A stretch of DNA of 33,829 bases, taken from contig JAFUGS010000013.1 in assembly GCA_017469265.1 (NCBI GenBank), positions 1 through 33,829 of the forward strand, read 5' to 3'. Below are positions 1,884 through 33,025 of the stretch, piece after piece. Within the stretch, counting starts at the first letter, position 1. Each line of letters opens with the position of its first letter. Origin of the DNA: Clostridia bacterium (lineage in GTDB: Bacteria > Bacillota > Clostridia > Christensenellales > Aristaeellaceae). Both the position numbers and the translations under genes were made by a program. Under the pieces are notes generated by a model, which worked only from the letters and a program-made list of their open reading frames with translations, was not told the DNA's origin and did no database searches.

Positions 1884-1899
1884 GAGGGAACCCGCGGCC

Positions 1900-8747: not shown

Positions 8748-8751
8748 ACAG

Positions 8752-8789: not shown

Positions 8790-8843
8790 GCCGAAACAGT
8801 TTTGTAACTTGCGAGGGAGCCATGGGCTGTGGCTTCGGAAAAG

Positions 8844-8873
8844 TTGCCTGCCGGACGGCAGATATGGTATACT
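8844..8873 (+). promoter_or_regulatory. rfbA: Probable promoter of the large glycan operon, with a dyad in the spacer
   Basis: TTGCCT (8844-8849) is followed after 18 bases by TATACT (8868-8873), 36 bases before the rfbA start. Between the boxes lies a perfect inverted repeat CTGCCG-GA-CGGCAG (8848-8861), a natural place for a repressor or activator to bind. This is the only clear promoter seen before the 18-gene run that ends at 29724. Confidence 0.6.
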
Positions 8874-8908
8874 GTCTTTTTAGAAAACGACCGGAGGAGG
8901 GAAGCCAA

Positions 8909-11801: not shown

Positions 11802-12201
11802 TTTCGAGGAGCACGGGGATGAGCGGGGGATCCTGATCTCCCTGGAGGAGGAGCGGAACATCCCCTTCGACATCCGCCGGTGCTACTTTATGTACAACAC
11901 CCAGCCCGGGGTCCGGCGGGGCTTTCATGCCCACAAAACCCTGCGGCAGGTGCTGGTCTGCGTCCGGGGCAGCTGCAAAATCCTGCTGGACGACGGGCGG
12001 GAGAAGGCGGTGGTGCCCCTGGACCGGCCCAACAAGGGGCTGTACCTCTCCTCCGACATCTGGCGGGAAATGTTTGATTTTTCGGACGACGCGGTGCTGA
12101 TGGTGCTGGCGGACCAGCTGTACGACGAGGCGGATTACATCCGGAACTATGCGGATTTCCTGGCCTGGGTCGAGAAGAAGAACAGGGAGGCGCGGACATG
12201 A
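11782..12201 (+). CDS. dTDP-4-keto-6-deoxyglucose 3,4-ketoisomerase (FdtA/QdtA type)
   Basis: A 139-residue cupin that moves the keto group of dTDP-4-keto-6-deoxyglucose from C4 to C3, preparing it for amination. The active-site RGFHAHK segment (His49, His51), the SCKILLDDG strand and the DIWREMFDF block are clear family marks. Start is GTG 11782, overlapping gtrA by 20 bases; the stop overlaps the aminotransferase ATG by four. Members yield either the galacto (Fuc3N) or gluco (Qui3N) product. From memory, the residues that decide this in QdtA are Tyr17 and Arg97. The matching positions here appear to be Arg15 and Arg95, one of each type, so the product configuration is left open. Confidence 0.92.
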
Positions 12202-16520: not shown

Positions 16521-17276
16521 ATGAACATTGCGATTATTACCGCCGCGGGCACCGGCACCCGGACAAAACAGATGGTGCCAAAGCAGTTTCTGAACGTGAA
16601 TGACAAGCCGATCATCATCTATACCCTGGAGTGCTTCCAGCGGCATCCGGAGATCGACGCCATCTACGTGGCCATCCTGGAGGGCTGGGAGGGCTTCATG
16701 GACCTGTATGCCAAGCAGTTCCACATCACGAAGCTGAAGGGCATCGTCCGGGGCGGCGCCACGGGACAGGAATCCATCGAGAAGGTGCTGGCGGCGGTGG
16801 CGAAGGACTGCGGGCCGGAGGACCTGGTCATGGTGCACGACGGCAGCCGGCCCTACCTGCCCCAGCGGGTGATTACGGAGAACCTGCGGGTCTGCCGGGA
16901 GCACGGCAACGCCATCGCGGCGGTGGACACGAAGGAAGCCATGCTGCAGACGGAGGACAAGATCAAGTCCAACATCAGCATTGACCGGGAGATCCTCTAC
17001 CGGACCCAGACGCCGCACACCATGCCCCTGGGGGCCATGCTGGCCCTGCACCGGGAGGCGGAGGCGCGGGGGATCACCGGCTCCGTGGCCACCTGTACCC
17101 TGCTGATCGAGTGCGGATACACGGTGTGGTTCTCCCGGGGATCGGACCTGAATTTCAAGATCACCTCCCTGGAGGATCTGATGATCTTCCGGGCCCTGGT
17201 GTCGGTGATGGATAAGCTGAACCTGGAGGAGGAAACGGAGTTTCCCAATGTAAAAAGCCTGGAGGAAAACGCATGA
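16521..17276 (+). CDS. IspD/TarI-like cytidylyltransferase
   Basis: A 251-residue GT-A-like nucleotidyltransferase that should join CMP from CTP to an alcohol or polyol phosphate. Marks are AAGTGTR (8-14), PKQF (20-23), VHDGSRP (105-111), the QTPHTM segment and the C-terminal NFKITSLEDL. The body resembles IspD (methylerythritol) and TarI (ribitol) enzymes. The ATG has GGAGGGAGG upstream, and its stop overlaps the ThDP enzyme gene by four bases (ATGA). Given that partner and the nearby CDP-glycerol transferase-like protein, it probably makes a CDP-linked glycan precursor. No TarJ-type dehydrogenase is adjacent, so ribitol is not the obvious substrate. Housekeeping IspD is less likely here. 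Confidence 0.85.
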   Translation: MNIAIITAAGTGTRTKQMVPKQFLNVNDKPIIIYTLECFQRHPEIDAIYVAILEGWEGFMDLYAKQFHITKLKGIVRGGATGQESIEKVLAAVAKDCGPEDLVMVHDGSRPYLPQRVITENLRVCREHGNAIAAVDTKEAMLQTEDKIKSNISIDREILYRTQTPHTMPLGAMLALHREAEARGITGSVATCTLLIECGYTVWFSRGSDLNFKITSLEDLMIFRALVSVMDKLNLEEETEFPNVKSLEENA

Positions 17277-19069
17277 ACGTCGCGGAGTACATCGTCAAAT
17301 ACGTGGAATACCGGGAAATTGAGCACGCCTACGTCATCGTGGGCGGCGCGGCCCTGTGGATCTGCAAGGCCCTGGGCCAGTCCAAAAAGCTGAAGTTCAC
17401 CTTCGTCAACCATGAGCAGGCGGCGGTAATGGGGGCCGACGGCTACGCCCGCATCAGCGGCAAGGCCGGCGTGGCCTTCGTGACCAACGGCCCCGCCCTG
17501 ACCAACACGGTGACGGGCATGGCCCAGGCCTATGTGGACTCCTCCCCGGTGGTGCTGTTCACCGGGGATTCCAACAGCCGGCACGTCCGCTTCGAGGGGG
17601 AGAACGGCCTGCGCCAGTACGGCACCCAGGACGTGAAGACCCACCGGATCATGGAGCCGGTGACCAAGAAGGTCTATACCCTGGAGGACCCGGCGAAGAC
17701 CGCCGAGGTGCTGGCGGAGGCCTTCTATCTGGCGGAGAGCGGGCGCCCCGGCCCCGTCTGCGTCCATGTGCCCATTGACATCCAGAGCGCGGAATGCCCC
17801 TGCGCCTTCCCGCCGGCCTGGACGCCCCCCGCGGAGCCGGAGATCCCCGCGGAGACGGTGGCGGACGTGCTGCGCCAGCTGAAGGCCGCGAAGCGCCCCC
17901 TGATCCTGGCGGGGCAGGGCGTGCGCCTGGCCGGGATGGTGGAAACGTTCCGGCGGCTGCTGCCCATGATCGATGTGCCGGTGGTCAACGCCCGCATGGG
18001 CATTGACACCATCCAGACGGATAATCCCTATTACGCGGGGCGCTGCGGCAACCACGGTTTCCGCTCCGCCCATTTCGCCCTGCAGACCTGCGACACGCTC
18101 CTGATCCTGGGCAGCCGGCTGGCCCCGAACACCACGGGCTACAACGTGCCGGATTTCGCGAAGCAGGCGAAGAAGATCCTCGTGGAATGCGACCCGGCGG
18201 AGCTGAAGCAGTACGGGGTGAAGATCGACGAAAACATCCAGGGGGATCTGCGGGACTTCCTGGGGAAGGCGGAGAGCCTGCTGGCAGCGGAAAAAACGCT
18301 GCGGGGGAGCCATCCGCGCTGGGTGTCCGTGTGCCAGGACTGGCTGCGCCGCTATCCCGTGGTGCAGGACAAGTACCTGCGGGGGGAAATCATCAATTCC
18401 TACTGGCTGGTGGACACGGTGACGAAGCTGGCGGGGGAGGAGGACATCGCCATCGCGGATACCGGCTCCTCCTGCAGCATCGTGGCCCAGGCCTGGCGGG
18501 TGCGGGAGAAGCAGCGGGTGCTGATCTCCGGCGGCCTGTCCGCCATGGGGTACTGGGCCACCTCCCTGGGCCTGGCGGAGGCCAACCGGGGAAAGGGGCA
18601 GGTGCTCTGCTTCGTGGGGGACGGCGCTCTGCAGATGAACATTCAGGAGTTCGCCACCCTGGCGGCCTATCAGATTCCGGTCAAAATCTTCCTGGTGACC
18701 AATGACGGCTACCAGTTCGTCCGCATGAGCCAGGGCGGGTACAACATCCATCCCCCCTTCGGCACGGACGCCTCCGACGGGGTGCCGATTCCGAACATGG
18801 AAAAGGTGACAAAGGCCTACGGGCTGAACTACCTGCGCTGCGAAAAGCCGGCGGAAATGGAGGCCCGGGTCCGGGAAGCCCTGGCGGCCCAGGGCCCCAC
18901 GGTGTGCGAGGTGTTTGTCAGCAAGGATCTGGAGGTGGAGCCCCGGCTGAAGTCCGTGGCCCGGCCGGACGGCACCTTTGGCATGCCCAGCTATGAAAAC
19001 CTGTATCCGAACCTGCCGGAAGACGTGCTGAAGGCGGAGATGGCGAAAGCCTTCGCGGACGGGGACTGA
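17273..19069 (+). CDS. Thiamine-diphosphate-dependent enzyme, acetolactate-synthase-like
   Basis: A 598-residue three-domain ThDP enzyme: an N-terminal pyrimidine-binding domain with catalytic Glu48 (NHEQAAVMGADGYAR), a central Rossmann-like domain (about 195-335), and a C-terminal diphosphate-binding domain with GDG (449-451), 25 residues and then ND (477-478), the standard magnesium/ThDP motif. Length fits acetohydroxyacid synthases, but no small subunit or ilvC is adjacent. It overlaps the cytidylyltransferase gene by four bases. Among glycan enzymes of this family YerE, known for yersiniose, adds a pyruvate-derived two-carbon unit to a CDP-keto-sugar. A similar carboligation, or a decarboxylation, making a CDP-linked precursor is a reasonable inference. 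The substrate is unknown. Confidence 0.85.
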   Translation: MNVAEYIVKYVEYREIEHAYVIVGGAALWICKALGQSKKLKFTFVNHEQAAVMGADGYARISGKAGVAFVTNGPALTNTVTGMAQAYVDSSPVVLFTGDSNSRHVRFEGENGLRQYGTQDVKTHRIMEPVTKKVYTLEDPAKTAEVLAEAFYLAESGRPGPVCVHVPIDIQSAECPCAFPPAWTPPAEPEIPAETVADVLRQLKAAKRPLILAGQGVRLAGMVETFRRLLPMIDVPVVNARMGIDTIQTDNPYYAGRCGNHGFRSAHFALQTCDTLLILGSRLAPNTTGYNVPDFAKQAKKILVECDPAELKQYGVKIDENIQGDLRDFLGKAESLLAAEKTLRGSHPRWVSVCQDWLRRYPVVQDKYLRGEIINSYWLVDTVTKLAGEEDIAIADTGSSCSIVAQAWRVREKQRVLISGGLSAMGYWATSLGLAEANRGKGQVLCFVGDGALQMNIQEFATLAAYQIPVKIFLVTNDGYQFVRMSQGGYNIHPPFGTDASDGVPIPNMEKVTKAYGLNYLRCEKPAEMEARVREALAAQGPTVCEVFVSKDLEVEPRLKSVARPDGTFGMPSYENLYPNLPEDVLKAEMAKAFADGD

Positions 19070-19111: not shown

Positions 19112-20452
19112 ATGCGCCTGCTGGACCGCGTCATTCATGTCCCCTACGTGTGGGAAAACCTGCGGAAGGCGGGGCTGCTGAAGGGGTATGAACGGAGGGC
19201 GTTCCGCCGCCTGGAGAAGGCGAAGACGGAGATCGACGCGCGGCTGGCCCGGAAGGCGGCCGCCGGGGAAAAGGTGAACGTGGTTTTCGTCTGCCACCGG
19301 CCCCAGGTCTGGCCCTCCCTGAAGCCCGTGTATGAGGCGCTGAAGGCGGATCCCCGTTTCCAGGTTCAAATCGTCGCCATTCCCCAGCGCAGCCCGGTGA
19401 AGGGCCTGGGGTACCTGAACGAGATCTATACCTCCGAGGGCGCGGAGGCTTTTTTCCGGCCGGAGGGCTGCCTGGAGGGGTACGACTACGAAAAGAAGCG
19501 GTGGCTGGATCTGCGGACGCTGGCGCCGGACTACGTCTTTTTCCAGCAGCCCTACAACGTGGCCCGGCCAGACGCCTACACCAGCGCCGCGGTCTCGGCC
19601 TACGCGAAGGTCTGCTACATTACCTACTACATCATGCTGGACATTGACCACCGGACCGTGGACTGCACGCCGGTGGATTTCCTGCATGATCTGTCCTTCT
19701 ACTTTTCCCAGAACGCGGCGGACGCGGTGTTCATCCGGGGCCGGCTGGAAAAGGGCGGCCCCAACCTGTGCCGGGTGGAAATCACCGGGCATCCCCGGCT
19801 GGAGGGGCTGGAAAGGCACCGGGCGGACACCTGTGACCGATGGGACCGGCCGGACCGGTTCAAGGTTCTCTGGGCGCCGCGGTGGACCACCCACGAGGGC
19901 AACTGCCACTTCTTCGCCTACCGGGAGCCGCTGACGGCCTGGTGCGAGGCGGACGCGGACACGGAGCTGATGCTGCGGCCCCATCCCCAGGCCTTTAAGG
20001 AATGGCGCAGCACCGGCGAGATGGACGCGGCGGGGGAGGCGGCCCTGCGGGAAAGCTTCCGGCGGGAGCGGTTCCACCTGGACGAGGAGGAGAATTTTTA
20101 CCCCCAGCTGTTCACCGCGGATGTACTGATCACGGATCCCTCCTCCCTGATCATCGACGCGTACTTTACCGGCAAACCGATCATTTACTGCGCCAGCGGC
20201 GGCCGCAACGACGGCGTCACCGAGGTGCTGCGCCCCGGCCTGTACTGGACGGAGAGCTGGGACGAGGTGGCGCGGACGCTGGACATGCTGCGGGCCGGGG
20301 AGGATCCCCTGCGGGAAATCCGGGCGGAATGCGCCCGGCAGTACCAGGGGGCGGACGGCGCGGCGCCCACCCGGAAAATCGTGGACATTCTGCGGGCGGA
20401 CGCCCTGGGACCGGGGGCGGCGGATCCCGCCGGAGGAAAGGAGAACCCATGA
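19112..20452 (+). CDS. CDP-glycerol glycerophosphotransferase-like protein, second copy
   Basis: A 446-residue transferase of the TagB/TagF type. It has a basic N-terminal helix region likely to touch the membrane, a middle WAPRWTTHEGN motif, RPHPQ (289-293) and the donor-site block DVLITDPSSLIIDAY (337-351) followed by GKPIIY. It has no N-terminal membrane helix, unlike the copy at 3070. GGAAAGGAG precedes the ATG, and its stop overlaps GtrII C by four bases. Placed after the cytidylyltransferase and ThDP enzyme, it is the natural candidate to transfer the CDP-activated group to the lipid-linked glycan, probably as a phosphodiester. Donor identity is inferred only from neighbours. Confidence 0.83.
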   Translation: MRLLDRVIHVPYVWENLRKAGLLKGYERRAFRRLEKAKTEIDARLARKAAAGEKVNVVFVCHRPQVWPSLKPVYEALKADPRFQVQIVAIPQRSPVKGLGYLNEIYTSEGAEAFFRPEGCLEGYDYEKKRWLDLRTLAPDYVFFQQPYNVARPDAYTSAAVSAYAKVCYITYYIMLDIDHRTVDCTPVDFLHDLSFYFSQNAADAVFIRGRLEKGGPNLCRVEITGHPRLEGLERHRADTCDRWDRPDRFKVLWAPRWTTHEGNCHFFAYREPLTAWCEADADTELMLRPHPQAFKEWRSTGEMDAAGEAALRESFRRERFHLDEEENFYPQLFTADVLITDPSSLIIDAYFTGKPIIYCASGGRNDGVTEVLRPGLYWTESWDEVARTLDMLRAGEDPLREIRAECARQYQGADGAAPTRKIVDILRADALGPGAADPAGGKENP

Positions 20453-21993
20453 CACGGGAAAGCAGGCCTGGGAAGCGCTTTTTCCGGCAGCCCGGGGGGC
20501 CGGCCCGGGCCGCTTTTTTGGGCGCGCTGATCGGGGGCCTGGTGGCCCAGGGCATGGGGCTTTTTAACAAATTCTCCTGGCATGACGATATTTTCCAGCT
20601 CTTCGGCACCGGCGCCACGATCACCTCCGGCCGCTGGATGCTGCAGGTGCTGATGGAGGCGGAGGATCTGCTCTTCGGCGGGCACTGCAGTCTGCCGCTG
20701 CTGCATGGCTTTTTCGCGCTGCTGTGCGTCGGGGCGTCCGCCGGGTTGATGGTGGCCCTGCTGCGGATCCGCCGTCCGCCGCTCTGCGCCCTGCTGGGGG
20801 CCGTGATGGCGGCCTTCCCCATGGTGACGGCGCTCTTCGGGTTCATATTTACGGCGCCGGCCTATTCGCTGGCCCTGCTGATGATCACGGCGGGGGCGTA
20901 CCTGCTCTGCGCGGAGGGCCGCTGGGGATGGAAGATCCCGGGGATCCTGCTGTGCGTCTGCTCTGTGGGTACCTACCAGGCCTTCCTGCCGCTGCTGCTG
21001 AGCCTCCTGCTGCTTTCCGACCTTCGGATGCTGGCGGAGGGGGAGCGGCCGCCGGCGGCCCTGCTGCGCCGCATGGCCGGCCAGGGGATCTGTCTCGTCC
21101 TGATTATGGCGCTCTATCTGGCGGGAAGCCGCTTCTTCCTCCGGAAATACGGCCTGGTGCTGGACACCTATATGGGCATCAATCAGGCGGCGTCCACCTC
21201 CCCGCTGGTCTATCTGGAGCGCGCGGGCCGGGCGTACCGGGAGTTCTTCCTGCCCTCCCGGAATGTGTCCTGGGACATGTATCCCCAGCACGCCCATTAC
21301 CTGTACCTGCTGATGCTCTGCGCGGACGGGCTCATGGGCCTGGGGCTGGCGTTCACCGCCTGGCGGCGGAGCCGCGGCCGGGGGGCGCTGACGCTGCTGC
21401 TCCTGGCGCTTTTCCCCCTGGGGTGCAATTTCATCTTCGTCATGTCGGAAGAGGTGCACAGCCTCATGACCTACGGTCAGGTGGCGCAGCTGGCGCTTTT
21501 CGTCTGGCTGGCGGACCGGACGGAGCTTCCGCGCCCGCGCTTCCGGCGGCTGATTCCCGGCCTGGCGGCGCTGGTGATGGCCGGCCTGGGCGTCATGTAT
21601 GCCCGGTATGACAATCAATGCTACCTGAAGACCGCCTTCCAGCAGCAGCAGGCCATTTCCTGGAACACGGCGCTGGTGGCGCGGATTAAGTCCGCGAAAG
21701 GGTACCGGGACGAGCTGCCCGTGGCCTGGGTCAACCGGACGGAGGCTCAGGACCGAACCCTGTACAACATCGGCGAGCTGGACTTCCTGCGGCTGTCCGG
21801 CTATGAGTACGACATCCAGACCTATGTCAACAACTGGGCCTGGGAAAGGTTCCTGGCCCGGTGGTGCGGCTTCGCGCCGGAAACGGTGGATCCGGAGACG
21901 GTTTCATCCCGGCCGGAGGTGGAGGGGATGCCCGCCTACCCGGCGGATGGATCCATCCAGGTGCTGGAGGACGTGGTGGTTGTCAAATTCTGA
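20449..21993 (+). CDS. GtrII-type polytopic glucosyltransferase, paralogue C
   Basis: A 514-residue membrane protein with the shared GtrII landmarks: NKFSWHDD (Asp46-Asp47), a TITSGRWML segment, YQAFLP loop, ARYDNQCYLK, QQQQAIS and the PADGSI...VVVKF tail. It differs from A and B in lacking the SHPY motif (here TAPAYS), a loop that could shape acceptor choice. The start is ATG 20449, with GGAGGAAAGGAG upstream, overlapping the preceding transferase by four bases. A much longer in-frame upstream reading is only a shadow. Coupling to the CDP-glycerol transferase-like gene suggests that both act on the same repeat unit. Codon use matches its G+C-rich surroundings. Confidence 0.86.
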   Translation: MTRESRPGKRFFRQPGGPARAAFLGALIGGLVAQGMGLFNKFSWHDDIFQLFGTGATITSGRWMLQVLMEAEDLLFGGHCSLPLLHGFFALLCVGASAGLMVALLRIRRPPLCALLGAVMAAFPMVTALFGFIFTAPAYSLALLMITAGAYLLCAEGRWGWKIPGILLCVCSVGTYQAFLPLLLSLLLLSDLRMLAEGERPPAALLRRMAGQGICLVLIMALYLAGSRFFLRKYGLVLDTYMGINQAASTSPLVYLERAGRAYREFFLPSRNVSWDMYPQHAHYLYLLMLCADGLMGLGLAFTAWRRSRGRGALTLLLLALFPLGCNFIFVMSEEVHSLMTYGQVAQLALFVWLADRTELPRPRFRRLIPGLAALVMAGLGVMYARYDNQCYLKTAFQQQQAISWNTALVARIKSAKGYRDELPVAWVNRTEAQDRTLYNIGELDFLRLSGYEYDIQTYVNNWAWERFLARWCGFAPETVDPETVSSRPEVEGMPAYPADGSIQVLEDVVVVKF

Positions 21994-22011: not shown

Positions 22012-23037
22012 GTGAAAATCTCCTTCCTGGTGACGTACTATCAGCAGGCGCGGTTCGTGGCGGAGAGCATGGACAGCCTGCTGGCGCTGGAAAAGCCGGC
22101 GGAGTGGGAAATCCTCATCGGGGATGACGGCTCCACGGACGGGACGGCGGAGGCGGCCCGGGCTTACGTGGACCGGGATCCCGCCCATATCCGGCTCTTT
22201 GTCATGGATCGGGATCCCGCCCGGAAGTACAACGCCGTGGAGCGGGCCAGCCGGAACCGGCTGAACCTGGTGCGCCACGCCACCGGGGACTGCTTCACCC
22301 TCATGGACGGGGACGATTTTTATTCGGAGACGGACTTTATCCCCCAGGCCCTGCGCCTGCTGGCGGATCATCCGGAGGTCAGCGTGGTGGCGTTCGACAC
22401 CTGGCGGTACAGGGAGGGGGACGCCCGGAAGGCCCGGAAGGCCGGAGACCCGACCCCCGTGGTGACCCATCGCGGCCGCTATCTCCGGTGGGACTACACC
22501 CACGCCGGGGCCTGCGTGTTCCGGCGGGATCCGGCGCCGGACGCCCTGGCGGCGCCGGAGAAAATCGGGCTGTTTGACGATAACGGGATCACCCTTTTCG
22601 CCCTGAACCGGGGCCGGATGATCCGGGTGCGCCGCCCGGTGTACGCCTACCGCCAGGCGGCGGGGGAAAGCGTCTACACGGCCATGCGCGCCCAGGAGCG
22701 GGCCGCGCTGAACCTGGCGGGGCTGGGCGCCTGCCTGGCCATGATGGACCGGAAATGGGAAGAAGCCGTGCTGGCCCGGTTTGCCACGGCGGTGTGGATG
22801 GCCTGGTTCCTGCGGAACCGGATGACGGAGGGCCTGACCCCGGAAAAGCGGGAAACCTATCTGGCGGCCTGCCGGCGGGCGGGCTTCCGGGAAGGGGAAA
22901 TGCTGATGGGCTATCCGGCGCTGGAGCCGGCAGAGCGGCGGCGCCTTCGGAAATGGGTCCGCCGGACGGGGCGGCTGAGCCCGCCCCGGGTGCTGTACGC
23001 CTGGCTGGAGGTTCATCGCGGGAGGCGGAAGCCGTGA
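22012..23037 (+). CDS. Family 2 glycosyltransferase
   Basis: A 341-residue GT-A-fold enzyme with the usual N-terminal strand (SFLVTYYQQ), the donor-binding GDDGSTDGT (37-45) and the metal-site LMDGDD (97-102). The C-terminal third is basic and Trp/Arg-rich, probably membrane-associating. It begins with GTG 22012 about ten bases after GAGAGGGGG, 18 bases after GtrII C, and its TGA overlaps the GTG of the flippase gene. It should add one sugar to the cytoplasmic lipid-linked repeat unit. Because the operon also makes a dTDP-3-amino sugar, that donor is a fair guess, but nothing in the sequence fixes it. Confidence 0.88.
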   Translation: MKISFLVTYYQQARFVAESMDSLLALEKPAEWEILIGDDGSTDGTAEAARAYVDRDPAHIRLFVMDRDPARKYNAVERASRNRLNLVRHATGDCFTLMDGDDFYSETDFIPQALRLLADHPEVSVVAFDTWRYREGDARKARKAGDPTPVVTHRGRYLRWDYTHAGACVFRRDPAPDALAAPEKIGLFDDNGITLFALNRGRMIRVRRPVYAYRQAAGESVYTAMRAQERAALNLAGLGACLAMMDRKWEEAVLARFATAVWMAWFLRNRMTEGLTPEKRETYLAACRRAGFREGEMLMGYPALEPAERRRLRKWVRRTGRLSPPRVLYAWLEVHRGRRKP

Positions 23038-24548
23038 ACAAGCAGATCAGCAGGGGGGTCATGCTTTCCTTCGTGGCCCAGGGCATCGCCATCCTGGTCA
23101 ACCTGGTTTATACCCCCTTCATTATCCGGATTCTGGGGCAGAATGAGTACGGGCTGTACCAGCTGGTACAGTCCGTGGTCAACTATCTGAACCTGATGAA
23201 CTTCGGCTTCACCGGCGCCTACATCAGCTTCTACGCCCGGGCGAAGGCGGAAAGCGGCGAGGAGGGCGTCGCCCGGCTGAACGGCATGTTCCTGCGGATT
23301 TTTCTGACGATCACGCTGGTATGCGTGGCGGCGGGGGTCTTCCTGGTGAGCCATATTCAGCTGCTGGGTTCCCGGCTGTCGGCGGCGGATTACGTCACCG
23401 CCCGGAAGCTGATGATCCTGCTGGTGGCCAACCTGGCCTGCTCCTTCCCGAACTCGGTGTTCACGGTGTACATCGCCGCCCGGGAGCGCTTCGTCTTCAA
23501 GCAGGGGGTCACCATCCTGAATTACGCCCTGATTCCCCTCTGCGGCCTGCCGGCGCTGTACATGGGGCTGGGCTCCGTGGGGCTGGCGGCGGTGACCCTG
23601 GGGCTGGCGCTGCTGCGGCTGGGGCTGAACATGGGCTACTGCCTGGGAAAGCTGCGGATGCGCTTCCGCTTTGGCCGCTTCGACAGGGCGCTGTTCGCGG
23701 GGCTGGTGGGGTTCACCTTCTTCATCTTCCTCAGCGACGTGGTGGACCAGCTGAACACCAATGTGGACAAATTCCTGCTGGGGCGGCTCATGGGCACCGG
23801 GGCGGTGGCGGTTTACAGCGTGGGCTTTGAGCTCAGCACCTACTTCACCTTCTGCTCCTGGGTCATTCCGGAGATGTTCATGCCGGAGGCCAACCGGATC
23901 GCCGTGGAGGAGGGGGACAACGGGAAGCTGACGGAGATGTTTGCCCGCGTCGGCCGGTACAACAACTATATCCTGCTGCTGGTGCTGACGGGCTTCATCC
24001 TGGCGGGCCGGCCCTTCATCCGCCTGTGGGCGGGGGAAGGATACGAGGTGTCCTACCAGGCGGGGGTGATCCTGATGCTGGCCCGGTACATTCCCGCGGT
24101 CCAGACCATGGGGGTCACCATCCAGAACGCGAAGCGCATGCACCGGCCCCGGGCGGTGATCTACTTTGTCATCGCGTGCGTCAACGTGGCAGCCAGCATC
24201 GGGCTGATCCGCCTGTGGGGCGTGGTGGGCACCAGCCTGGGCACCCTGGCGGCGGTGGCGCTGGGGGCCGGGCTGTTCATGAATCTGTACTACCATTTCC
24301 GGATCGGGCTGAACGTGAAAACCTTCTGGCGGGCGCTGCTGCGCTGGACGCTGATGGCGCTGCTGCTCTGCGGCGGGGCGGGCCTGGTGATCCGGGGTAT
24401 CTCCCTGGACAGCTGGCCCCGGCTGGCCGCCTTCGTGCTGATCTATTCCGGGCTGTACCTGGCGCTGCTGTGGACCCTGGGCATGCGCCCCGGGGAGAAA
24501 AAGGAAATCCGGCAGGCCCTGGCGGGGCTCCGGGGCCGGAAGGGCTGA
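23034..24548 (+). CDS. Wzx-type polysaccharide flippase
   Basis: A 504-residue protein with about 14 hydrophobic segments in the polysaccharide-transport (MOP superfamily) pattern. It has the N-terminal Gly- and Phe-rich first helix, GQNEYGLYQL after helix two, the DQLNTNVDKFLLG segment in the middle, and further helix pairs to the end. It would flip the finished lipid-linked repeat unit outward. GTG 23034 lies 8 bases after GGAGG and overlaps the previous stop. A longer upstream reading runs through the GT2 gene and is rejected. It is the only full-size flippase visible; the SMR pair and GtrA proteins probably handle single lipid-linked sugars. Confidence 0.93.
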   Translation: MNKQISRGVMLSFVAQGIAILVNLVYTPFIIRILGQNEYGLYQLVQSVVNYLNLMNFGFTGAYISFYARAKAESGEEGVARLNGMFLRIFLTITLVCVAAGVFLVSHIQLLGSRLSAADYVTARKLMILLVANLACSFPNSVFTVYIAARERFVFKQGVTILNYALIPLCGLPALYMGLGSVGLAAVTLGLALLRLGLNMGYCLGKLRMRFRFGRFDRALFAGLVGFTFFIFLSDVVDQLNTNVDKFLLGRLMGTGAVAVYSVGFELSTYFTFCSWVIPEMFMPEANRIAVEEGDNGKLTEMFARVGRYNNYILLLVLTGFILAGRPFIRLWAGEGYEVSYQAGVILMLARYIPAVQTMGVTIQNAKRMHRPRAVIYFVIACVNVAASIGLIRLWGVVGTSLGTLAAVALGAGLFMNLYYHFRIGLNVKTFWRALLRWTLMALLLCGGAGLVIRGISLDSWPRLAAFVLIYSGLYLALLWTLGMRPGEKKEIRQALAGLRGRKG

Positions 24549-24674: not shown

Positions 24675-26240
24675 ATGGAAGCAAAAGGAAGGGGCTTTTC
24701 GCCGCTGCGGCGCGTGCCGGAACCGGCGCGCTGGGCGTTTGGCGGCGCGATGCTCTTCGGGCTCCTGGCGCACGGCATGGGGCTCTGGAACAAGCTTTCC
24801 TGGCATGATGACATCGTCGCCCTCTTCTGGGTGGGCAGCACGATTTCCTCCGGCCGGTGGATGCTGCATGTGCTGGGCTGGCTGGAGACCCTGCTTTTCG
24901 GCGACGGGCATTTCAGCCTGCCGGTGATGAACGGCCTTTTCGCCCTTTGCTGCGTCGGGGCGGCGGCGGCCTTGCTGGCGCGGCTGCTGGGCATCCGGAA
25001 AAAGAGCATTTGCGCGGGCCTGGGCTGCGTCATGGCGGCCTTTCCCACGGTGGCGGGGCTTTTCGGGTATATGTTCACCATCCCCTATTACCTGCTGGCC
25101 ATGGTCATGATGGTGGTCAGCGCCTGGGCGATCTGCGAGGGAAAATGGTGGATGAAGCTGGGGGCAGTCCTGCTGGGGGGCTGCTCCGTGGGGATCTATC
25201 AGGCCTTCGTGCCCATGCTGCTGAGCGTCCTGCTGCTGTATGACATGCGGCGCCTGGCGGAAGGCAGCGAATCCGTCGGCGCCTTCCTGAAGCGGGCGGC
25301 CGCGCAGGGGCTGTGCGTGGCGGGGGTCATGGGGTTCTATTTCGCGATGAACGCCTTCTTCCTCGCCAAGTTTGACCTGCGGATGAACACCTACATGGGC
25401 ATGGATCAGATGGGGGCCGACTCCCTGGGGGACTATCTGGGCCGGGTGGGCCTGGCCTATCAGCGGTTCTTCGGGCCGGAGCGCTACACCTCCGCGGACA
25501 TGTATCCCATGCGGGCGTATTACGCCTACCTGGCCATGCTCTGCGGGGATCTGCTGCTGGGGCTGGGGCAGGTGATCCGCCTCTGGCGGAAAAACCGGGG
25601 CAAGGCCCTGCTCTTTATCCTGCTGCTGGCCCTGTTCCCCCTGGCCAATGATTTCATCTACGTCATGTCCGAGCGGGTGCACGGGCTGATGACCTACAGC
25701 CTGGTGATGCAGGCGGCGCTCTTCGCCTGGCTGGCGGACCGGACGGATTTCCGGACGGTTTTCGGCAGGGAAAGGGCGGCGGCAGTTCTGCGCCGGGCGG
25801 TTCCCGGCCTGGCCGCGGCGGTGCTGGGTTTCACGGGGATTCTGTACGCCCGGTTTGACAATCAGTGCTACCTGAAGGCCACCTTCCAGCAGCAGCAGGC
25901 CATTTCCTTCTTCACCGCCCTGACCGCCCAGATCAAGGCGGCCCCGGGCTTCCGGGACGACATGCCCGTGGCCTTCCTGAATGAGGAGAAGATCGCGGAT
26001 CAGACGCTGTACAACATCGATGAGCTGGATTTCATCCACCTGCCCCCCTACGGGGATACCATGGAGGGCTATGTGAACACCTATGCCTGGCGCGCCTTCA
26101 TGGAGCGCTGGTGCGGCTTCGGCCCCGCCTACGCGGATCCTTCCGCCTGCGCGGATCTGCCGGAGGTCCAGGCCATGCCCCACTATCCGGACGACGGATC
26201 CATCCGCCAGGTGGGGGACATCCTGGTGGTGAATTTTTAG
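24675..26240 (+). CDS. GtrII-type polytopic glucosyltransferase, paralogue D
   Basis: A 521-residue membrane protein sharing the family plan: NKLSWHDD (Asp45-Asp46), a TISSGRWML segment, [31 protein letters not shown] and the tail PEVQAMP...PDDGSI. It looks closer to C than to A and B around the first loop (SWHDD). The SHPY motif is replaced by TIPYYLL. AAAGGAA lies about 11 bases before ATG 24675; an in-frame ATG a little upstream has weaker support. Only 35 bases separate it from the acyltransferase. Having four such enzymes in 22 kb is unusual and suggests several distinct side-branch additions. Confidence 0.86.
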   Translation: MEAKGRGFSPLRRVPEPARWAFGGAMLFGLLAHGMGLWNKLSWHDDIVALFWVGSTISSGRWMLHVLGWLETLLFGDGHFSLPVMNGLFALCCVGAAAALLARLLGIRKKSICAGLGCVMAAFPTVAGLFGYMFTIPYYLLAMVMMVVSAWAICEGKWWMKLGAVLLGGCSVGIYQAFVPMLLSVLLLYDMRRLAEGSESVGAFLKRAAAQGLCVAGVMGFYFAMNAFFLAKFDLRMNTYMGMDQMGADSLGDYLGRVGLAYQRFFGPERYTSADMYPMRAYYAYLAMLCGDLLLGLGQVIRLWRKNRGKALLFILLLALFPLANDFIYVMSERVHGLMTYSLVMQAALFAWLADRTDFRTVFGRERAAAVLRRAVPGLAAAVLGFTGILYARFDNQCYLKATFQQQQAISFFTALTAQIKAAPGFRDDMPVAFLNEEKIADQTLYNIDELDFIHLPPYGDTMEGYVNTYAWRAFMERWCGFGPAYADPSACADLPEVQAMPHYPDDGSIRQVGDILVVNF

Positions 26241-26275: not shown

Positions 26276-27148
26276 ATGCGGGAGCCCGCGAAACAGGGAG
26301 AACACTGCGTCATCGGCCGGGATGTGGTCTTTGGCGAAAACGTGACGCTGGGGCATAACTGCGTCATTGAGGATCACGTGCGCATCGGCGCGGACTGCTA
26401 TATCGACAGCAATACCATCATCCGGGGCGGCGTGACCCTGGGGGACGGCGCCCTGGTGGGGGCGAACTGCCTGCTGGGGGAATGCGGGGCGGACTTCCGC
26501 GGGGACCCGCGGCATCAGGAACTCCCCCTGACCATCGGGGAGAAGGCCCTGATCCGGAGCGGATCCATCCTTTACGGCGGCTCCGTCATCGGGGACCACT
26601 TCCAGACCGGCCATCAGGTGACCATCCGGGAGAAGACGGAGATCGGGAACCATGTCAGCGTGGGCACCCTGTCCGACATCCAGGGAAACTGCCGGCTCGG
26701 TCACTACGTGCGGCTGCACAGCAATGTGCACATCGGGCAGCTGTCCGTGGTGGACGATTTCGTCTGGATTTATCCCTACGTGGTGCTGACCAACGACCCG
26801 ACGCCGCCTTCCAGCGACTTCGCGGGGGTGCATGTGCATTCCTTCGCCATCGTGGCCACCGGCGCCATCATCATGCCGGGGCTGGACCTGGGGCAGGACT
26901 GCCTGATCGGCGCCGGGGCCATCGTGACCCGGTCCGTGGAGCCCTACGCCGTGGCGGTGGGCAATCCCGCCCGGGTGATTTCCAATGTCCGGAAGGTGCG
27001 GAACCGGGTCACCGGCGAGCCGGTGTATCCCTGGCGGGAGCATTTCAGCCGCTACATGCCCTGGGAGGGGACGGAGTTTGACGCCTGGTACGCGGCGCTG
27101 CCCGCGGAGGAGAAGACGCGCTATACCCTCCGGGATCTGCAGGAATGA
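26276..27148 (+). CDS. Left-handed beta-helix sugar N-acyltransferase
   Basis: A 290-residue protein built of hexapeptide repeats (isoleucine/valine-glycine turns such as VIGRDVVFGENVTLG) across roughly residues 8-215, followed by a helical tail (EPVYPWREHFSRY). This is the trimeric acyl-CoA-dependent transferase fold seen in QdtC-like and other amino-sugar acyltransferases. The start has a perfect AGGAGG 8 bases upstream. It should acylate the 3-amino group of dTDP-Fuc3N/Qui3N, the missing last step of the pathway begun at 8909-13295. It is followed after nine bases by a CoA-ester dehydrogenase and a thiolase, which hints at an acyl donor other than acetyl-CoA. Fold assignment is firm; donor and acceptor are inferred. 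Confidence 0.88.
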   Translation: MREPAKQGEHCVIGRDVVFGENVTLGHNCVIEDHVRIGADCYIDSNTIIRGGVTLGDGALVGANCLLGECGADFRGDPRHQELPLTIGEKALIRSGSILYGGSVIGDHFQTGHQVTIREKTEIGNHVSVGTLSDIQGNCRLGHYVRLHSNVHIGQLSVVDDFVWIYPYVVLTNDPTPPSSDFAGVHVHSFAIVATGAIIMPGLDLGQDCLIGAGAIVTRSVEPYAVAVGNPARVISNVRKVRNRVTGEPVYPWREHFSRYMPWEGTEFDAWYAALPAEEKTRYTLRDLQE

Positions 27149-27157
27149 GGTGAAAGC

Positions 27158-28474
27158 ATGCGGAACATCCGTACCGTGACGGTGATCGGGGTCACCGGGA
27201 CCATGGGAGCCAATGTGGCCGGGATCTTCGCGTCCTTCGGGGACGCGAGGGTCTTCTGCGTGGGCCGTGACCTGGAGAAGGTCCGGCGGACGGTTCCTCG
27301 CATTGTCCGGTCCGTGAAGGCGGACGCCATCGCGGCGAACCTGGTGCCCGCGGATTTTTCCATGCTGGAGACCTGCGTGGCGGAATCGGATCTGGTGTTT
27401 GAAAGCGTGCGGGAGGATCTGGCCCTGAAGAAGGAGATCGCCGCCCGGGTGGCCGGCGCCCTGCGGGCGGACGCCATTTCCGGCACCGGCTCCTCCGGCC
27501 TGTCCATCACGGAGATTGCGGAATGCTATCCGCCGGAGAAGCGGAGCCGCTTCTTTGGCATCCATATGTTCAACCCGCCCTATACCCTGCCCCTGTGCGA
27601 GCTGACGCCCACGGTGTATTCCGACCGGGCGCTGCTTTCCTGGCTGAAAACCTACCTGCGGGAAAAGCTGTTCCGCACGGTGGTAGAGGTCCGGGATTCC
27701 CCGGCGTTCCTGGCGAACCGGATCGGCTTCCAGTTCATCAATCAGGCCCTGCGGGACGCGGAGCGGTATCAGGATAACGGCGGCATCGACTACATGGACG
27801 CGGTGCTGGGCTCCTTCACCGGGCGGACCATGCCGCCCCTGACCACCGCGGATTTCGTCGGCCTGGATGTGCATCAGGCCATCGTGAACAACCTGTACGC
27901 GCATACCGCGGACTGGGCCCGGGACAGCTTCGCCCTGCCGGCCTTCGCCCGGGACCTGATCGACGGGGGCCGGCTGGGGCGGAAGAGCGGCGGCGGGCTG
28001 TACCAGGTGGTGAAGTACGAAAACGGGCTCCGGCGGCAGACGGTGTACGACATTTCCACCGGGGCGTACCGGGATGTGATCCCCTATCATTTTCCCTTCG
28101 CGGAGCAGATGCAGCAGGCCATCGCGGAGGGGGATTATCAGCTGGCCTTCACCCGGCTGACGCGGAATCAGTCCCCGGAGGCCCGCCTCTGCCTGGCCTA
28201 TCTGCTGCGCTACATGCTGTACGCGCTTTTCGCGGCGCGGGAGGCGGGCGGGGACATGGCCGCCGCGGACGACGTCATGGCCGCAGGCTTCAGCTGGTGT
28301 CCGCCCCTGGCGCTTTATCAGGCGCTGTCCTCCGCGGCGGATGTGCCCGCCCTGATCCGGGAGCGCCTGCCGGAGGTGTGCGAAAGGATGGACGTGGACC
28401 GCGCCCTGGCGGAGATCCGGCCTTCGCGGTATGATTACCGGCGGTATTTCAAGTCGGGGAGGCGGATGGAATGA
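27158..28474 (+). CDS. 3-hydroxyacyl-CoA dehydrogenase family protein
   Basis: A 438-residue enzyme of the FadB/Hbd dehydrogenase family, which interconverts 3-ketoacyl-CoA and 3-hydroxyacyl-CoA with NAD(H). It has an N-terminal Rossmann domain, the catalytic pair His136 (GIHMFNPP) and Glu148 with the usual 12-residue spacing, Asn187 in AFLANRIG, and [12 protein letters not shown] near 265-276. A second C-terminal 3HCDH-like domain (about 320-420, with [14 protein letters not shown]) makes it longer than the usual 280-residue Hbd. The nucleotide loop reads GVTGTMG (11-17), one residue longer than GxGxxG. GAGGTGA precedes the ATG, and its stop overlaps the thiolase ATG by four bases. No hydratase or acyl-CoA dehydrogenase is nearby, so it probably serves glycan modification rather than beta-oxidation. 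Confidence 0.9.
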
Positions 28475-29724
28475 AGAAGGTATATATCCTCGGCGGCGCC
28501 CAGACCGATTTTGAGCGGAACTGGAAAAAGGAAGGCAAGGGCATGGTGGCCCTGCTGAAGGAAGCCGTGGCGGACGGCCTGACCGGGGCGGGGCTCAGCT
28601 TTGAGGACGTGCGGGCCCTGAACCGGGAGGACCGGGTGGCCTGCTTCGTCGGCAATTTCATCGCGGAAAAGTATACGGAGCAGGGACACCTGGGCGCGTT
28701 TCTGACGGAGGTGGATCCGGCTTTCTACGGCGTGCCCTCCGCCCGGTACGAGGCGGCATGCGCCAGCTCCTCCGCTGCCATCGACGCCGCCCGGACCAGC
28801 ATCCGGGCCGGGGACCGCGACGTGGCAATCGTCGTCGGCTGGGAGCTGATGAAGACGGTGGACGCCCGGACCGGCGGCGACTTCCTGGGCCGGGCCGCGT
28901 ACTACGAGAAGGAGGCGAAGGGTATCGAGCTGCCCTTCCCGAAGCTTTTCGGCCGCCTGGCGGACGAGACGCTGCGGAAGTATCCGGCCCTGGAGGAAAA
29001 ACGGTACATGGACGCCCTGGCCCGGATCGCCTGTATCAACTATGCCAACGCGAAACGGAACCCCCTGGCCCAGACCCGCCAGTGGTTCATGAACTTTGCC
29101 CAGGCCAGCGCCCGGGGCACAGAGACCAATCCCCTGGTGGGCGGGCGGCTGGCTGTGTCGGACTGCTCCCAGATCACGGACGGGGCCGCGGTGGTGGTGC
29201 TGGCCTCGGAGGATTTCGTCCGGCGCCGGGGCCTGACGGGCCGGCCGGTGATCAAGGGCTTCGGCCACCGGAACGCGCCCCTGCGCTTTGACCGGAAGGT
29301 CGCCGAGCAGCCGGACAGCCCTTATCTGCTCCCCTGGACGCGGCAGGCCGTGCTGGACGCCTATGGTCGCAGCGGGCTGACCGTGGCGGACATGGATGTT
29401 TTTGAGGCCCACGACTGCTTCACCAGCTCGGAGTATGCGGCGCTTTCTGCCTTCGGCCTGACGCCCCCCGGGGAGGAGTACCGGGCGGTGGAATGCGGGC
29501 TCATCGCCCCGGGCGGGGCGAAGCCGGTGAACTCCGGCGGCGGCCTCATCGGCTGCGGCCATCCCGTCGGCGCCACCGGCGCCCGGATGCTGCTGGACCT
29601 GTACAAACAGGTGACCGGCGCCGCGGGGGGCTATCAGGTTCCGGACGCGAAAAATGCCCTGATGCTGAACATCGGGGGCACGGCCACGACCAATTATGTC
29701 TTTATTGTGGGCAGAGAGGACTGA
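28471..29724 (+). CDS. Thiolase family protein, SCP-x type
   Basis: A 417-residue thiolase-fold enzyme. Nucleophile Cys97 lies in YEAACASSS, the first His in EAHDCF (His314-Cys316), and the second His in [10 protein letters not shown] (His364, after Cys362). The C-terminal CxGGG cysteine of classical biosynthetic thiolases is replaced by NIGGT; together with HDCF this marks the sterol-carrier-protein-x-like branch. Such enzymes condense or cleave acyl-CoAs. Coupled by an ATGA overlap to a 3-hydroxyacyl-CoA dehydrogenase and a sugar acyltransferase, it could make a 3-ketoacyl-CoA such as acetoacetyl-CoA for reduction and transfer to the amino sugar. It is the last gene of the run and ends before a strong hairpin. 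Confidence 0.9.
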
Positions 29725-29736
29725 GAAAACCCTGAC

Positions 29737-29763
29737 AAAAGCCCTCCCGCAAAGCGGGAGGGC
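29737..29763 (-). terminator. Intrinsic terminator of the minus-strand GT2 gene
   Basis: A perfect ten-pair stem GCCCTCCCGC/GCGGGAGGGC (29741-29750 with 29754-29763) closes a three-base loop. Read on the minus strand it is followed by TTTT (plus 29737-29740) then GTC, the order needed for termination of the GT2 gene. For the plus-strand thiolase gene the hairpin lies 16 bases after the stop without a U-tract, so it may only protect that message. Confidence 0.7.
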
Positions 29764-31027: not shown

Positions 31028-33025
31028 ATGCGAAGAAAAAGCGTTTTCAACGGCGTGATCCGATGGAGCATTCCCTTTCTCTGCGCCCTGCTCAGCCTCT
31101 GTTTCCGCTTTTCCCATTTTCACTGGCAGGTTCTGGCCGGGGCGCTCTGCTTCGCGGGCGCCTGGCTGCTTTTCTGCGCGAAGCGCCGGCCTGTCCGAAG
31201 CCGGAAGATCCCCCTGTGCGTATTTCTGCTGCTGGCGGTACTGCTCGGGCTGTACGCCCTGGTGGGGGAAGGGGTCTATCACACCCGGTACCAGGCCCAC
31301 GATCTGGACCGCAATCTGTTCAAAGGGAAGAAGATCCTCGTGCTGGCGCCCCATCAGGATGACGAGATCAACCTGTTCGGCGGCCTCTATGAGCACTTTA
31401 CGGCGGACAGCGAGGTGTATGTGGCCTTTTCCACCAACGGGGACAAGGTGGTCACCGGGGACATCCGCATCCGGGAGGCAGCGGAGGCCCTGGGGCATAT
31501 GGGGGTGGACCGGGATCACATCATTTTCCTCGGCTACGGGGATACCTGCGCGGCCTGGGCCGGCCGGCATATGTACAACCATCCCGGGGATCAGGTGGTG
31601 GCCTCCTTCCGGGGGGACACGGAAACCTACGGGGCGGAGGGCTTTACGCCATACCGGCAGCATACCTTTACCCGTGACCATCTGAAGGCGGATCTGCGGG
31701 ATCTGCTGCTGGACCTCCGGCCCGACGCCGTCTTCTGCATCGACTACGACTACCATCATGACCACCGGGCCCTGTCCCTGCTTTTCGAGGAAGCCATGGG
31801 GGAGATTCTCGCCCGGGAGGGAAATGACTATACCCCCGCCGTTTTCAAGGGCTTCGGCTATTCCACGGCCTACCTGGGGGCGCCGGACTTCTACGCGGAC
31901 AACATCCGGTCCACGGTGCCCTACGCGCAGGAGTATCCCTTTCCCGGGGACGCCTATACGGACGAGGCGGGCGGCCGGGTTTTCTACAAAGGGGAGAACA
32001 ACATCTACCTGTGGCGGGACCGGATCCGCTTTCCCCTGGCGGAATGCAACCTGTCCCGCACGCTCCACGCCAGCCAGCTGTACGACGCCATGTACGCGCA
32101 CCGGTCCCAGGACGTGCTCTACGAGGCGGGTGCCAATCTGCGCGCCATCCTGAACGGGGACAAGGTGTTCTGGCCGCGGGACACCTCCGGCCTCCTGTAC
32201 GGGGCGGCGGTTTCCGTCTCCTCGGGGGACGGCGGCATGCTGCGGGACTTTAAGCTGATCGACTCCGGGGACATTACGGACAAGGAGCGGCCCCCTTTCG
32301 AGAACCTCTGGGCACCGGAGGCGGCGGACAGCCAAAAGACCGCGACCTTCACCTTCCCGGAGGAGACCGCCCTGGATTCGATCCGCCTGTACGACAACCC
32401 CTCCCTGACGGACAACGTGCTCCGCGCCAGCATCCTTTTCTCCGACGGCAGCGAAATCGCCTGCGGGCCCCTGGCCATCGGGGGCAGCCCCACGGTGCTT
32501 TCCTTCGGGGAAAAGCGGGTAACCTCCTTTTCCGTCCGGATTTTGGAGACGGAGGGGGAGCGGCCGGGGCTCACGGAGGTGGAGGCGTATCTGCGGGCGG
32601 ATGCCCGCGCCGCGGTGCCGGAGATCATCAAGCTGCAGGACGCGGAGGAAAACTTCGTCTATGATTACTGGATGACGGAGGCGCCGGAGGTGTTTTCCGT
32701 CTATAACGCGCTGGACGCCTATGACGGGGGCGCTTCCCGGACCTACGAGCTGAAGCTTCTCGGCGGGCAGTGCGGGATTACCCGGGTGGACGGAAAGTCC
32801 TTCTCCGTTTCCTGCGAAAAGGGGGAACGGGCGGAGCTGGCCCTCTATGCGGAGGGACAATCCGACCCGGTGGACCGGATTACCGTCCGCAACCCCCGCT
32901 GGCCGGAAAGGGCGTGGATCGCCCTGCTGACCGCGGCGGAAAAAACGGAAGGCTTCTATACCCCCCGGGAGCAGCTGGCGTATTTCCGCCTGACGGTGAC
33001 GGATTTTCTGGAGAAGCATTTTTAA
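31028..33025 (+). CDS. Membrane-anchored PIG-L family deacetylase with a C-terminal beta domain
   Basis: A 665-residue protein. Three hydrophobic segments (about 13-27, 34-50 and 62-80) anchor it. The PIG-L zinc-hydrolase domain follows with APHQDDE (107-113) and HHDH (243-246), the metal ligands of N-acetylglucosaminyl-type deacetylases. A discoidin-like beta domain lies at about 425-525 (TFTFPEE...IRLYDNPSLTDNV), and another beta-rich end follows. This layout suggests a deacetylase outside the membrane that binds the glycan and removes N-acetyl groups. The ATG has AGGAGG upstream. It lies downstream of the divergent GT2 gene and is followed after 110 bases by a further membrane protein. The zinc motifs appear intact. 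Confidence 0.9.
   Translation: MRRKSVFNGVIRWSIPFLCALLSLCFRFSHFHWQVLAGALCFAGAWLLFCAKRRPVRSRKIPLCVFLLLAVLLGLYALVGEGVYHTRYQAHDLDRNLFKGKKILVLAPHQDDEINLFGGLYEHFTADSEVYVAFSTNGDKVVTGDIRIREAAEALGHMGVDRDHIIFLGYGDTCAAWAGRHMYNHPGDQVVASFRGDTETYGAEGFTPYRQHTFTRDHLKADLRDLLLDLRPDAVFCIDYDYHHDHRALSLLFEEAMGEILAREGNDYTPAVFKGFGYSTAYLGAPDFYADNIRSTVPYAQEYPFPGDAYTDEAGGRVFYKGENNIYLWRDRIRFPLAECNLSRTLHASQLYDAMYAHRSQDVLYEAGANLRAILNGDKVFWPRDTSGLLYGAAVSVSSGDGGMLRDFKLIDSGDITDKERPPFENLWAPEAADSQKTATFTFPEETALDSIRLYDNPSLTDNVLRASILFSDGSEIACGPLAIGGSPTVLSFGEKRVTSFSVRILETEGERPGLTEVEAYLRADARAAVPEIIKLQDAEENFVYDYWMTEAPEVFSVYNALDAYDGGASRTYELKLLGGQCGITRVDGKSFSVSCEKGERAELALYAEGQSDPVDRITVRNPRWPERAWIALLTAAEKTEGFYTPREQLAYFRLTVTDFLEKHF

Follow-up and report, generated by a model that had tools for sequence, protein, structure and literature searches.

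Three coupled genes at the end of a glycan operon

The stretch of DNA analysed here, referred to as the window, comprises 33,829 nucleotides of contig JAFUGS010000013.1 from the Clostridia bacterium assembly GCA_017469265.1. Three genes on its plus strand, at 26276-29724, encode a QdtC-type sugar N-acyltransferase (P0001), a 3-hydroxyacyl-CoA dehydrogenase (HCDH, P0002) and an SCP2-type thiolase (P0003). This trio probably makes up the final three genes of a glycan operon, where it would serve to N-acylate a dTDP-3-amino-3,6-dideoxyhexose. An earlier note on this DNA, made from the letters alone, described the three genes as tightly coupled, and their spacing is exactly as it said: nine bases (27149-27157) separate the acyltransferase and HCDH genes, and the HCDH and thiolase genes share an ATGA overlap (28471-28474). 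We infer that the genes are transcribed as one operon. The features of the window are collected in Table 1.

Table 1. Features of the window, beginning with the trio (ORF, open reading frame)
Feature	Position	Strand	Length (aa)	Evidence or remark
QdtC-type left-handed beta-helix sugar N-acyltransferase (P0001)	26276-27148	+	290	Hexapep; PDB QdtC 3fs8
3-hydroxyacyl-CoA dehydrogenase with extra C-terminal domain (P0002, HCDH)	27158-28474	+	438	3HCDH_N + 3HCDH
SCP2-type thiolase (P0003)	28471-29724	+	417	NF004936/PRK06289
Terminator-like hairpin, 10-pair stem, downstream of thiolase	29741-29763	-		Consensus match only
GtrII-family glucosyltransferase immediately upstream of trio	24675-26240	+		PF14264
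Wzx-type polysaccharide exporter	22755-24548	+		Polysacc_synt_3; true start probably later in ORF
DegT-family sugar 3-aminotransferase (QdtB-like)	12198-13295	+		Pfam DegT; PDB QdtB 3frk 390 bits
FdtA/QdtA-type dTDP-sugar 3,4-ketoisomerase	11782-12201	+		Pfam FdtA; PDB FdtA 2pa7 145 bits, QdtA 123 bits
RmlA glucose-1-phosphate thymidylyltransferase	8705-9796	+		TIGR01207 457.7 bits vs 360.65; match from ORF residue 70
Acyl_transf_3 protein	6010-7116			About 19 kb from trio
RmlB dTDP-glucose 4,6-dehydratase	768-1952	-		TIGR01181 501 bits vs 365.1; match from ORF residue 58

Family assignment of the three proteins

The best PDB sequence match of P0001 is QdtC (302 bits, E 3.6e-89, residues 14-278), and QdtC entries are the sole Foldseek matches at E<=0.001 to its AlphaFold model, which is of moderate quality (pLDDT 73.8). 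Both sequence and fold place the protein in the QdtC family of dTDP-3-amino-3,6-dideoxyhexose N-acyltransferases. The closest relative of the window ketoisomerase is FdtA and that of the aminotransferase is QdtB, so that the sugar would be either Fuc3N or Qui3N.

By sequence, P0002 is closest to clostridial Hbd among solved structures. Besides the two 3HCDH domains, it carries the catalytic set Ser113, His136, Glu148 and Asn187, found in 48 of 49 aligned rows (the remaining row has a gap), as is typical of 3-hydroxyacyl-CoA dehydrogenases. Its AlphaFold model (pLDDT 88.5) superimposes well on Hbd in its first two thirds (4kue, root-mean-square deviation 2.2), and bears a looser resemblance, along most of the chain, to E. 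coli 3mog and to alpha subunits of beta-oxidation complexes (TM score to query 0.6-0.7). Where an NAD-type GxGxxG loop is expected, the P0002 family has GxxGxxG (residues 11-17), one residue longer and unlike the loop of Hbd. The loop is followed by [GSAC]R, with Arg37 present in 46/46 rows, and in the model Gly36 is the last residue of strand 2. The position after Arg37, which aligns with an Asp of Hbd, is acidic in 27 of the 46 rows, the window having Asp at 38. The loop and Arg37 suggest, without proving, use of NADP(H), and hence a reductive role, a reading that Asp38 makes tentative for the window enzyme; a search of the open-licence PMC literature returned nothing on coenzyme preference.

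P0003 scores 547 bits against NF004936/PRK06289 (cut-off 375), and its best PDB match is the SCP2-thiolase-like 4bi9. The catalytic residues Cys97, His314, Cys316 and His364 are invariant in 52/52 rows; score, catalytic cysteine and the HDCF and GHP residues together identify an SCP2-type thiolase.

Genome content and beta-oxidation

The families to which HCDH and thiolase belong are familiar chiefly from beta-oxidation and butyrate formation, and the pair could in principle belong to fermentation or fatty-acid degradation, lying in the glycan operon by chance. The genome content speaks strongly against this. Within the window's assembly (2.57 Mb, 91.75% complete), the window thiolase is the only thiolase and P0002 the only full-length 3HCDH, a second match spanning 52 positions and falling below the cut-off. 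Crotonase/enoyl-CoA hydratase had no match in the whole of this assembly; in control genomes the searches were positive for thiolase in 14/14, for 3HCDH in 14/14 and for crotonase in 13/14. The earlier note had remarked that neither a hydratase nor an acyl-CoA dehydrogenase accompanies the trio, and for the hydratase this holds assembly-wide (acyl-CoA dehydrogenases were not searched genome-wide). Because the assembly has no other full HCDH, no other thiolase and no crotonase, a place for the pair in an ordinary beta-oxidation or butyrate pathway is very unlikely, barring one in the missing 8% of the genome, and a beta-oxidation or butyrate operon was rejected. With the glycan context recurring in tens of loci, as described below, we regard chance placement of fermentation genes as extremely improbable.

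Among six other carriers of the pair searched with PF02737, another strong 3HCDH is found only in the Butyricicoccus genome G961 (202 bits). Other 3HCDH matches stay below 30 bits in the genomes of Ruminococcus turbiniformis, Lachnoclostridium An138 and Anaerocolumna sedimenticola and in those that hold the loci L048 and L043.

Recurrence of the pair beside amino-sugar genes

Relatives were searched in 200 genomes, the window's own included. A close thiolase (>=73% identity) occurs in six genomes of the genus, again counting its own, and the whole trio is present in four of the five other thiolase-bearing congeners, with protein identities of 66-81%. All six thiolase-bearing congeners carry an FdtA-family gene, compared with 24 of the 200 genomes overall. 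The related genome G018 keeps the downstream GlyPT, GtrII, GT2, Wzx and GtrII genes (60-81% identical) and an aminotransferase-FdtA pair; another hexapeptide acyltransferase stands in place of the trio, and the genome has no thiolase match.

A wider scan of species-representative genomes, seeded by the window thiolase, was confined to the best 80 of 345 confirmed relatives and is biased to close ones. These loci fall into the 51 closest (set A, L022-L072) and a further 29 (set B, L073-L101). HCDH lies directly before thiolase in 48 of the 51 closest loci; the record of L063, which starts 18 bases before the thiolase, cannot be judged. As the HCDH of L027 is a 67-residue fragment at a contig end, 47 pairs are measurable. 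Six-frame profile searches found a hexapeptide acyltransferase within 800 bp of 34 of these, a DegT aminotransferase in the flank of 31, and either in 41; where both flanks reach at least 9 kb (21 pairs), the counts are 19 and 16. In contrast, neither hexapeptide nor DegT genes were found at the 21 distant thiolase loci without HCDH (L079, L080 and L083-L101), some of which have short flanks. L063, L068, L070 and the eight pairs of set B fall outside this comparison. A chance neighbourhood of the pair was rejected in view of this recurrent amino-sugar and acyltransferase context, which is missing from the distant loci that lack HCDH. The trio appears to be more than a chance grouping because it is kept whole in congeneric genomes and because its HCDH-thiolase pair recurs in nearly all of the closest loci. 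The earlier note had staked its reading on a link between pair and amino-sugar genes at homologous loci, and such a link is present.

There is no adjacent hexapeptide match in 13 pairs, for seven of which one neighbour was tested with Pfam. Three of the seven showed other acyltransferase families near the pair: a GNAT gene lies directly upstream in L028, another is the second gene downstream in L030, and an Acyl_transf_3 gene lies directly upstream in L071. Hexapep proteins are present in three further loci tested, L038, L064 and L069.

Several observations weigh against assigning the pair to amino-sugar acylation. The single neighbours tested in L047, L049, L058 and L061 match no acyltransferase family above cut-off, and 6 of the 47 pairs (L028, L047, L049, L050, L058 and L071) lack both a nearby hexapeptide acyltransferase and a DegT gene in the flank. 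The eight more distant pairs (L073-L078, L081 and L082) lack a hexapeptide match, and a single one of them has DegT. In one congener, G027, the gene downstream of the pair encodes a different hexapeptide protein, and there is no QdtC. In G032, G039, G042 and G043 the top-scoring FdtA and the trio lie on different contigs; two of these genomes (G039 and G042) have a weaker FdtA near the trio. In the window itself, the FdtA-type and aminotransferase genes belong to one same-strand gene run with P0001 but are 13-14 kb away from the trio. The earlier note had placed a full dTDP-3-amino-3,6-dideoxyhexose route in the operon; RmlA, ketoisomerase and aminotransferase are indeed upstream on the same strand, but RmlB is on the minus strand and so outside it. 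A more compact arrangement is seen in L043, where rmlA, rmlB, fdtA, aminotransferase, qdtC, HCDH and thiolase genes all lie within about 11 kb, with qdtC within about 8 kb of the ketoisomerase and aminotransferase genes.

Named strains are the source of four loci: Anaerocolumna sedimenticola CBA3638, Ruminococcus turbiniformis CLA-AA-H200, Lachnoclostridium sp. An138 and Butyricicoccus sp. Marseille-Q5471. Some of the 51 records are titled Planctomycetes, Bacteroidales or Verrucomicrobia; all of these are metagenome-assembled genomes, in which transfer is indistinguishable from mis-binning. The eight distant pairs of set B are mostly from planctomycete records (thiolase 52-54% and HCDH about 30% identical), and five of the eight are flanked by sugar-transferase genes of the Bac_transf type. 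The spirochaete thiolases of L068 and L070, 61% identical to that of the window and near-identical to each other, have no HCDH and neither hexapeptide nor DegT neighbours; an AMP-binding protein is encoded in the flank of L070.

Exchange of the acyltransferase class

The two genes of the pair co-evolve. Pairwise identities of HCDH and thiolase correlate with r 0.87 across the window and 46 loci (the short HCDH sequences of L024 and L027 excluded these two), and 0 of 999 permutations reached as high a value. The hexapeptide acyltransferases that adjoin the pair are, in contrast, of different classes: QdtC-like, VioB-like (best PDB match 7txp for L054) and LpxD-like (best PDB match 3eh0 for L041). 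L054 probably makes a 4-amino sugar, since the best PDB match of its aminotransferase is 1o61, which we take to be PglE.

The starred branches of the thiolase tree force at least four changes of class for QdtC-like, at least four for LpxD-like and at least seven for VioB-like proteins, numbers that are inflated by rows of class “other” (22/52 rows, including hexapeptide matches below 150 bits and rows truncated where a contig ends). Two switches are clean. The sisters L025 (VioB-like) and L032 (QdtC-like) are joined with support 100/99, and the sisters L029 (LpxD-like) and L045 (VioB-like, with a weaker LpxD-like match as well) with support 99/91. Class labels are nonetheless somewhat clustered on the tree, with 20 changes against a mean of 25.2 after shuffling.

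This class switching is the strongest argument that the product of the pair is usable by sugar acyltransferases in general. The sequence evidence as a whole makes it likely that dehydrogenase and thiolase form a portable unit for acyl-donor supply, joined by different glycan loci to different sugar acyltransferases. A broader proposal, to which we give about even chances, is that the pair is a dedicated, horizontally reassorted cassette, common among gut Clostridia and perhaps also outside their phylum, which makes (S)-3-hydroxyacyl-CoA, perhaps with NADPH, for QdtC-like, VioB-like, LpxD-like or GNAT partners. It would then mark an entire class of glycans, so far undescribed, with N-(S)-3-hydroxyacylated amino sugars, mostly in bacteria that have no other 3-hydroxyacyl-CoA dehydrogenase.

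LpxD is an enzyme of lipid A synthesis for the outer membrane, which makes it odd that LpxD-like hexapeptide proteins follow the pair directly in L026, L029, L041 and L057, all Clostridia records; of these, only L041 was compared with the PDB.

Residues that separate QdtC relatives with and without the pair

Five alignment columns, His152, Ile153, Gln155, Tyr168 and Thr195 in window numbering, are fixed in 10/10 rows of QdtC relatives associated with the pair. QdtC itself has Phe138, Val139, Glu141, His154 and Ala181 in these columns, residues that are thus absent from P0001, and the closest four QdtC relatives without the pair differ from the pair-associated rows at all five. Out of 1001 possible splits of these 14 rows, only that into pair and no-pair rows yields so many fixed columns; with looser columns, three splits do. 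When the more distant pair-less relatives L128, L136, L137 and L147, which lie outside the 14-row comparison, are added to the closest four, Gln155, Tyr168 and Thr195 remain exclusive to the pair rows (10/10 vs 0/8). The other two columns count against such a division, as His152 also occurs in 1/8 and Ile153 in 4/8 rows without the pair. So does the tree, in which the four closest pair-less relatives group together on one side of a branch (82/92). L048, sister to these four and a carrier of the pair, retains all five residues. The five-residue difference is compatible with a change of acyl donor; common descent could also explain it, and it does not bear on membership of the QdtC family as such.

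These residues bear on a rival explanation, in which the acyltransferase acetylates as QdtC does and the hydroxyacyl-CoA of the pair goes to another acceptor, for example in O-acylation by the Acyl_transf_3 protein of the window, or to a lipid. The PDB title of QdtC names it an acetyltransferase, an Acyl_transf_3 gene does adjoin the pair in L071, and a QdtC relative can be found beside FdtA and an aminotransferase with no pair in the stretches read, as in L125 (genome G058), L126 (genome G292) and the viral-collection contig L165. Against it stand the residue differences that divide QdtC rows with the pair from those without, and gene order: an acyltransferase adjoins the pair in the window and a hexapeptide one in most of the measurable pair loci, whereas the window's Acyl_transf_3 gene is remote from the trio. 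We consider acetylation by P0001 improbable and prefer hydroxyacylation.

Wider searches for QdtC relatives added little. A profile search of the phylum matched 38 of 398 genomes, with listed matches of at most 190 bits compared with 499 for the window. In three of these (L136, L137 and L147) a DegT aminotransferase gene adjoins the QdtC relative, and no pair lies within the 3.6 kb examined. The only QdtC relative from a scan of viral contigs is that of L165, with no pair within 10.8 kb. On plasmids, part of the acyltransferase was matched by nine haloarchaeal records (37-41% identity), and the thiolase by two Cupriavidus records (42%).

Proposed pathway

The steps proposed here, including reaction direction, acyl group, stereochemistry, coenzyme preference and sugar epimer, are drawn from family membership. 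The thiolase would condense an acyl-CoA with acetyl-CoA, most simply two molecules of acetyl-CoA, to a 3-ketoacyl-CoA (acetoacetyl-CoA in that case). HCDH would reduce this to an (S)-3-hydroxyacyl-CoA, in the simplest case (S)-3-hydroxybutyryl-CoA. The acyltransferase would then attach the hydroxyacyl group to dTDP-Fuc3N or dTDP-Qui3N, at the 3-amino position and ahead of incorporation into the glycan, and the acylated sugar would be exported and assembled through the rest of the operon. A point against this scheme is that the thiolase equilibrium disfavours condensation, for which reason the reaction direction is only presumed; use of the product would pull the unfavourable step. The earlier note had proposed that the operon makes its own hydroxyacyl-CoA and places it on the 3-amino group. 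The logic of that idea is largely supported, as homologous loci link the pair to amino-sugar genes, and we hold the scheme as a whole to be probable; the sequence gives no evidence for the particular acyl group.

The pair might feed the acyltransferase with something other than 3-hydroxybutyryl, such as a longer, 2-methyl-branched or otherwise substituted 3-hydroxyacyl group built from another starter. SCP2-type thiolases accept varied acyl-CoAs, and several acyltransferase classes are used with the pair. On the other hand, acetyl-CoA is the simplest starter, and acyl-CoA synthetase and mutase families had no match among the Pfam-scanned ORFs of the window, to which that search was confined. 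Such an alternative acyl group is possible but unlikely, and 3-hydroxybutyryl is kept as the working assumption.

The N-acyl groups of rare sugars can determine antigenicity and whether phages or hosts recognise the sugar. If the proposed role of the pair is true, the two genes predict from genome sequence alone which gut Clostridia bear hydroxyacylated amino sugars, and they explain the source of the donor in bacteria without beta-oxidation or butyrate formation. The arrangement would also have a modular logic, with donor supply exchanged independently of sugar and acyltransferase. Glycan analysis may be feasible in the named strains that carry the pair.

Other genes of the locus

The locus encodes four GtrII-family (PF14264) glucosyltransferases, at 4428-5996, 7113-8657, 20002-21993 and 24675-26240. 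At 16521-19069 a gene for an IspD-like cytidylyltransferase overlaps one for an acetolactate-synthase-like thiamine diphosphate enzyme, both below NCBIfam cut-offs, and a Glyphos_transf protein follows. Beside the operon, at 31028-33025, is a large protein with PIG-L de-N-acetylase and DUF7402 domains.

Comparison with known systems

No description of a thiolase and HCDH pair in a glycan locus was found in the open-licence PMC literature. Passages of PMC3726653, PMC2914790 and PMC9614988 contain nothing on the pair. One case tells against linking such a dehydrogenase to hydroxyacylation: Vibrio cholerae NRT36S has an ORF for a 3-hydroxybutyryl-CoA dehydrogenase in its capsule/lipopolysaccharide region, yet the passages on its NMR analysis describe amino sugars that are N-acetylated, with no hydroxyacyl group (PMC1847822).

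P0001 shares fold and family over 265 residues with QdtC of Thermoanaerobacterium thermosaccharolyticum (3fs8, 3fsb and 3fsc), and the partner enzymes, QdtA and QdtB, are the same in kind. QdtC is titled an N-acetyltransferase and differs from the pair-associated homologues at the five fixed columns. The clostridial Thl-Hbd enzymes catalyse the same two reactions as proposed for the pair, giving (S)-3-hydroxybutyryl-CoA. The window differs from them in the SCP2 subfamily of its thiolase, in the extra domain of its HCDH and in an assembly without crotonase.

The anthrose operon of Bacillus anthracis includes antA, which encodes an enoyl-CoA hydratase and is thus a CoA-ester gene in a Gram-positive sugar operon; to our knowledge this operon has no thiolase-HCDH pair. 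As is proposed for the window, antABCD is a Gram-positive sugar operon for an N-hydroxyacyl amino sugar, bearing N-(3-hydroxy-3-methylbutyryl), but the sugar is a 4-amino sugar (PMC10050317, PMC6947953). FdhC and QdhC from O-antigen loci of E. coli O103, Acinetobacter and Hafnia are assigned transfer of 3-hydroxybutanoyl to Fuc3N or Qui3N (PMC4869667). Acyl type and sugars agree with those proposed here, but the group is (R), and the main text of that paper mentions neither thiolase nor dehydrogenase. The Acinetobacter qhbCB/gdr module gives QuiNAc4N with (S)-3-hydroxybutanoyl (PMC9676051), which matches the acyl group proposed here but with a 4-amino sugar and, in the module as listed, no thiolase or dehydrogenase.

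The nearest parallel in working is the viosamine island of Pseudomonas syringae, where vioS, vioR and acp beside vioA and vioB encode a 3-oxoacyl-acyl carrier protein (ACP) synthase, a reductase and an ACP for N-(3-hydroxybutyryl)viosamine (PMC3927599). The flagellin glycan of a vioR mutant contains only rhamnose (PMC3927599). As in the window, a sugar aminotransferase, an N-acyltransferase, a C-C condensing enzyme and a ketoreductase are combined in one glycan locus, and an N-(3-hydroxybutyryl) group is proposed for its product. The island uses an ACP, a 3-oxoacyl-ACP synthase III and an ACP reductase for a Gram-negative flagellin glycan, whereas in the window the enzymes beside the acyltransferase are of the CoA-dependent thiolase and 3HCDH families, with an expected (S) product, in Clostridia. 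The window unit would work like the viosamine island but is not a member of that type. The earlier note's claim that a CoA-ester supply inside a Gram-positive glycan locus is undescribed was too broad, given this precedent and that of antA. On-site supply of a hydroxyacyl group is already known in principle, and because the viosamine island has an ACP-based equivalent, the novelty narrows to the portable CoA/thiolase version in Clostridia, which appears to be new.

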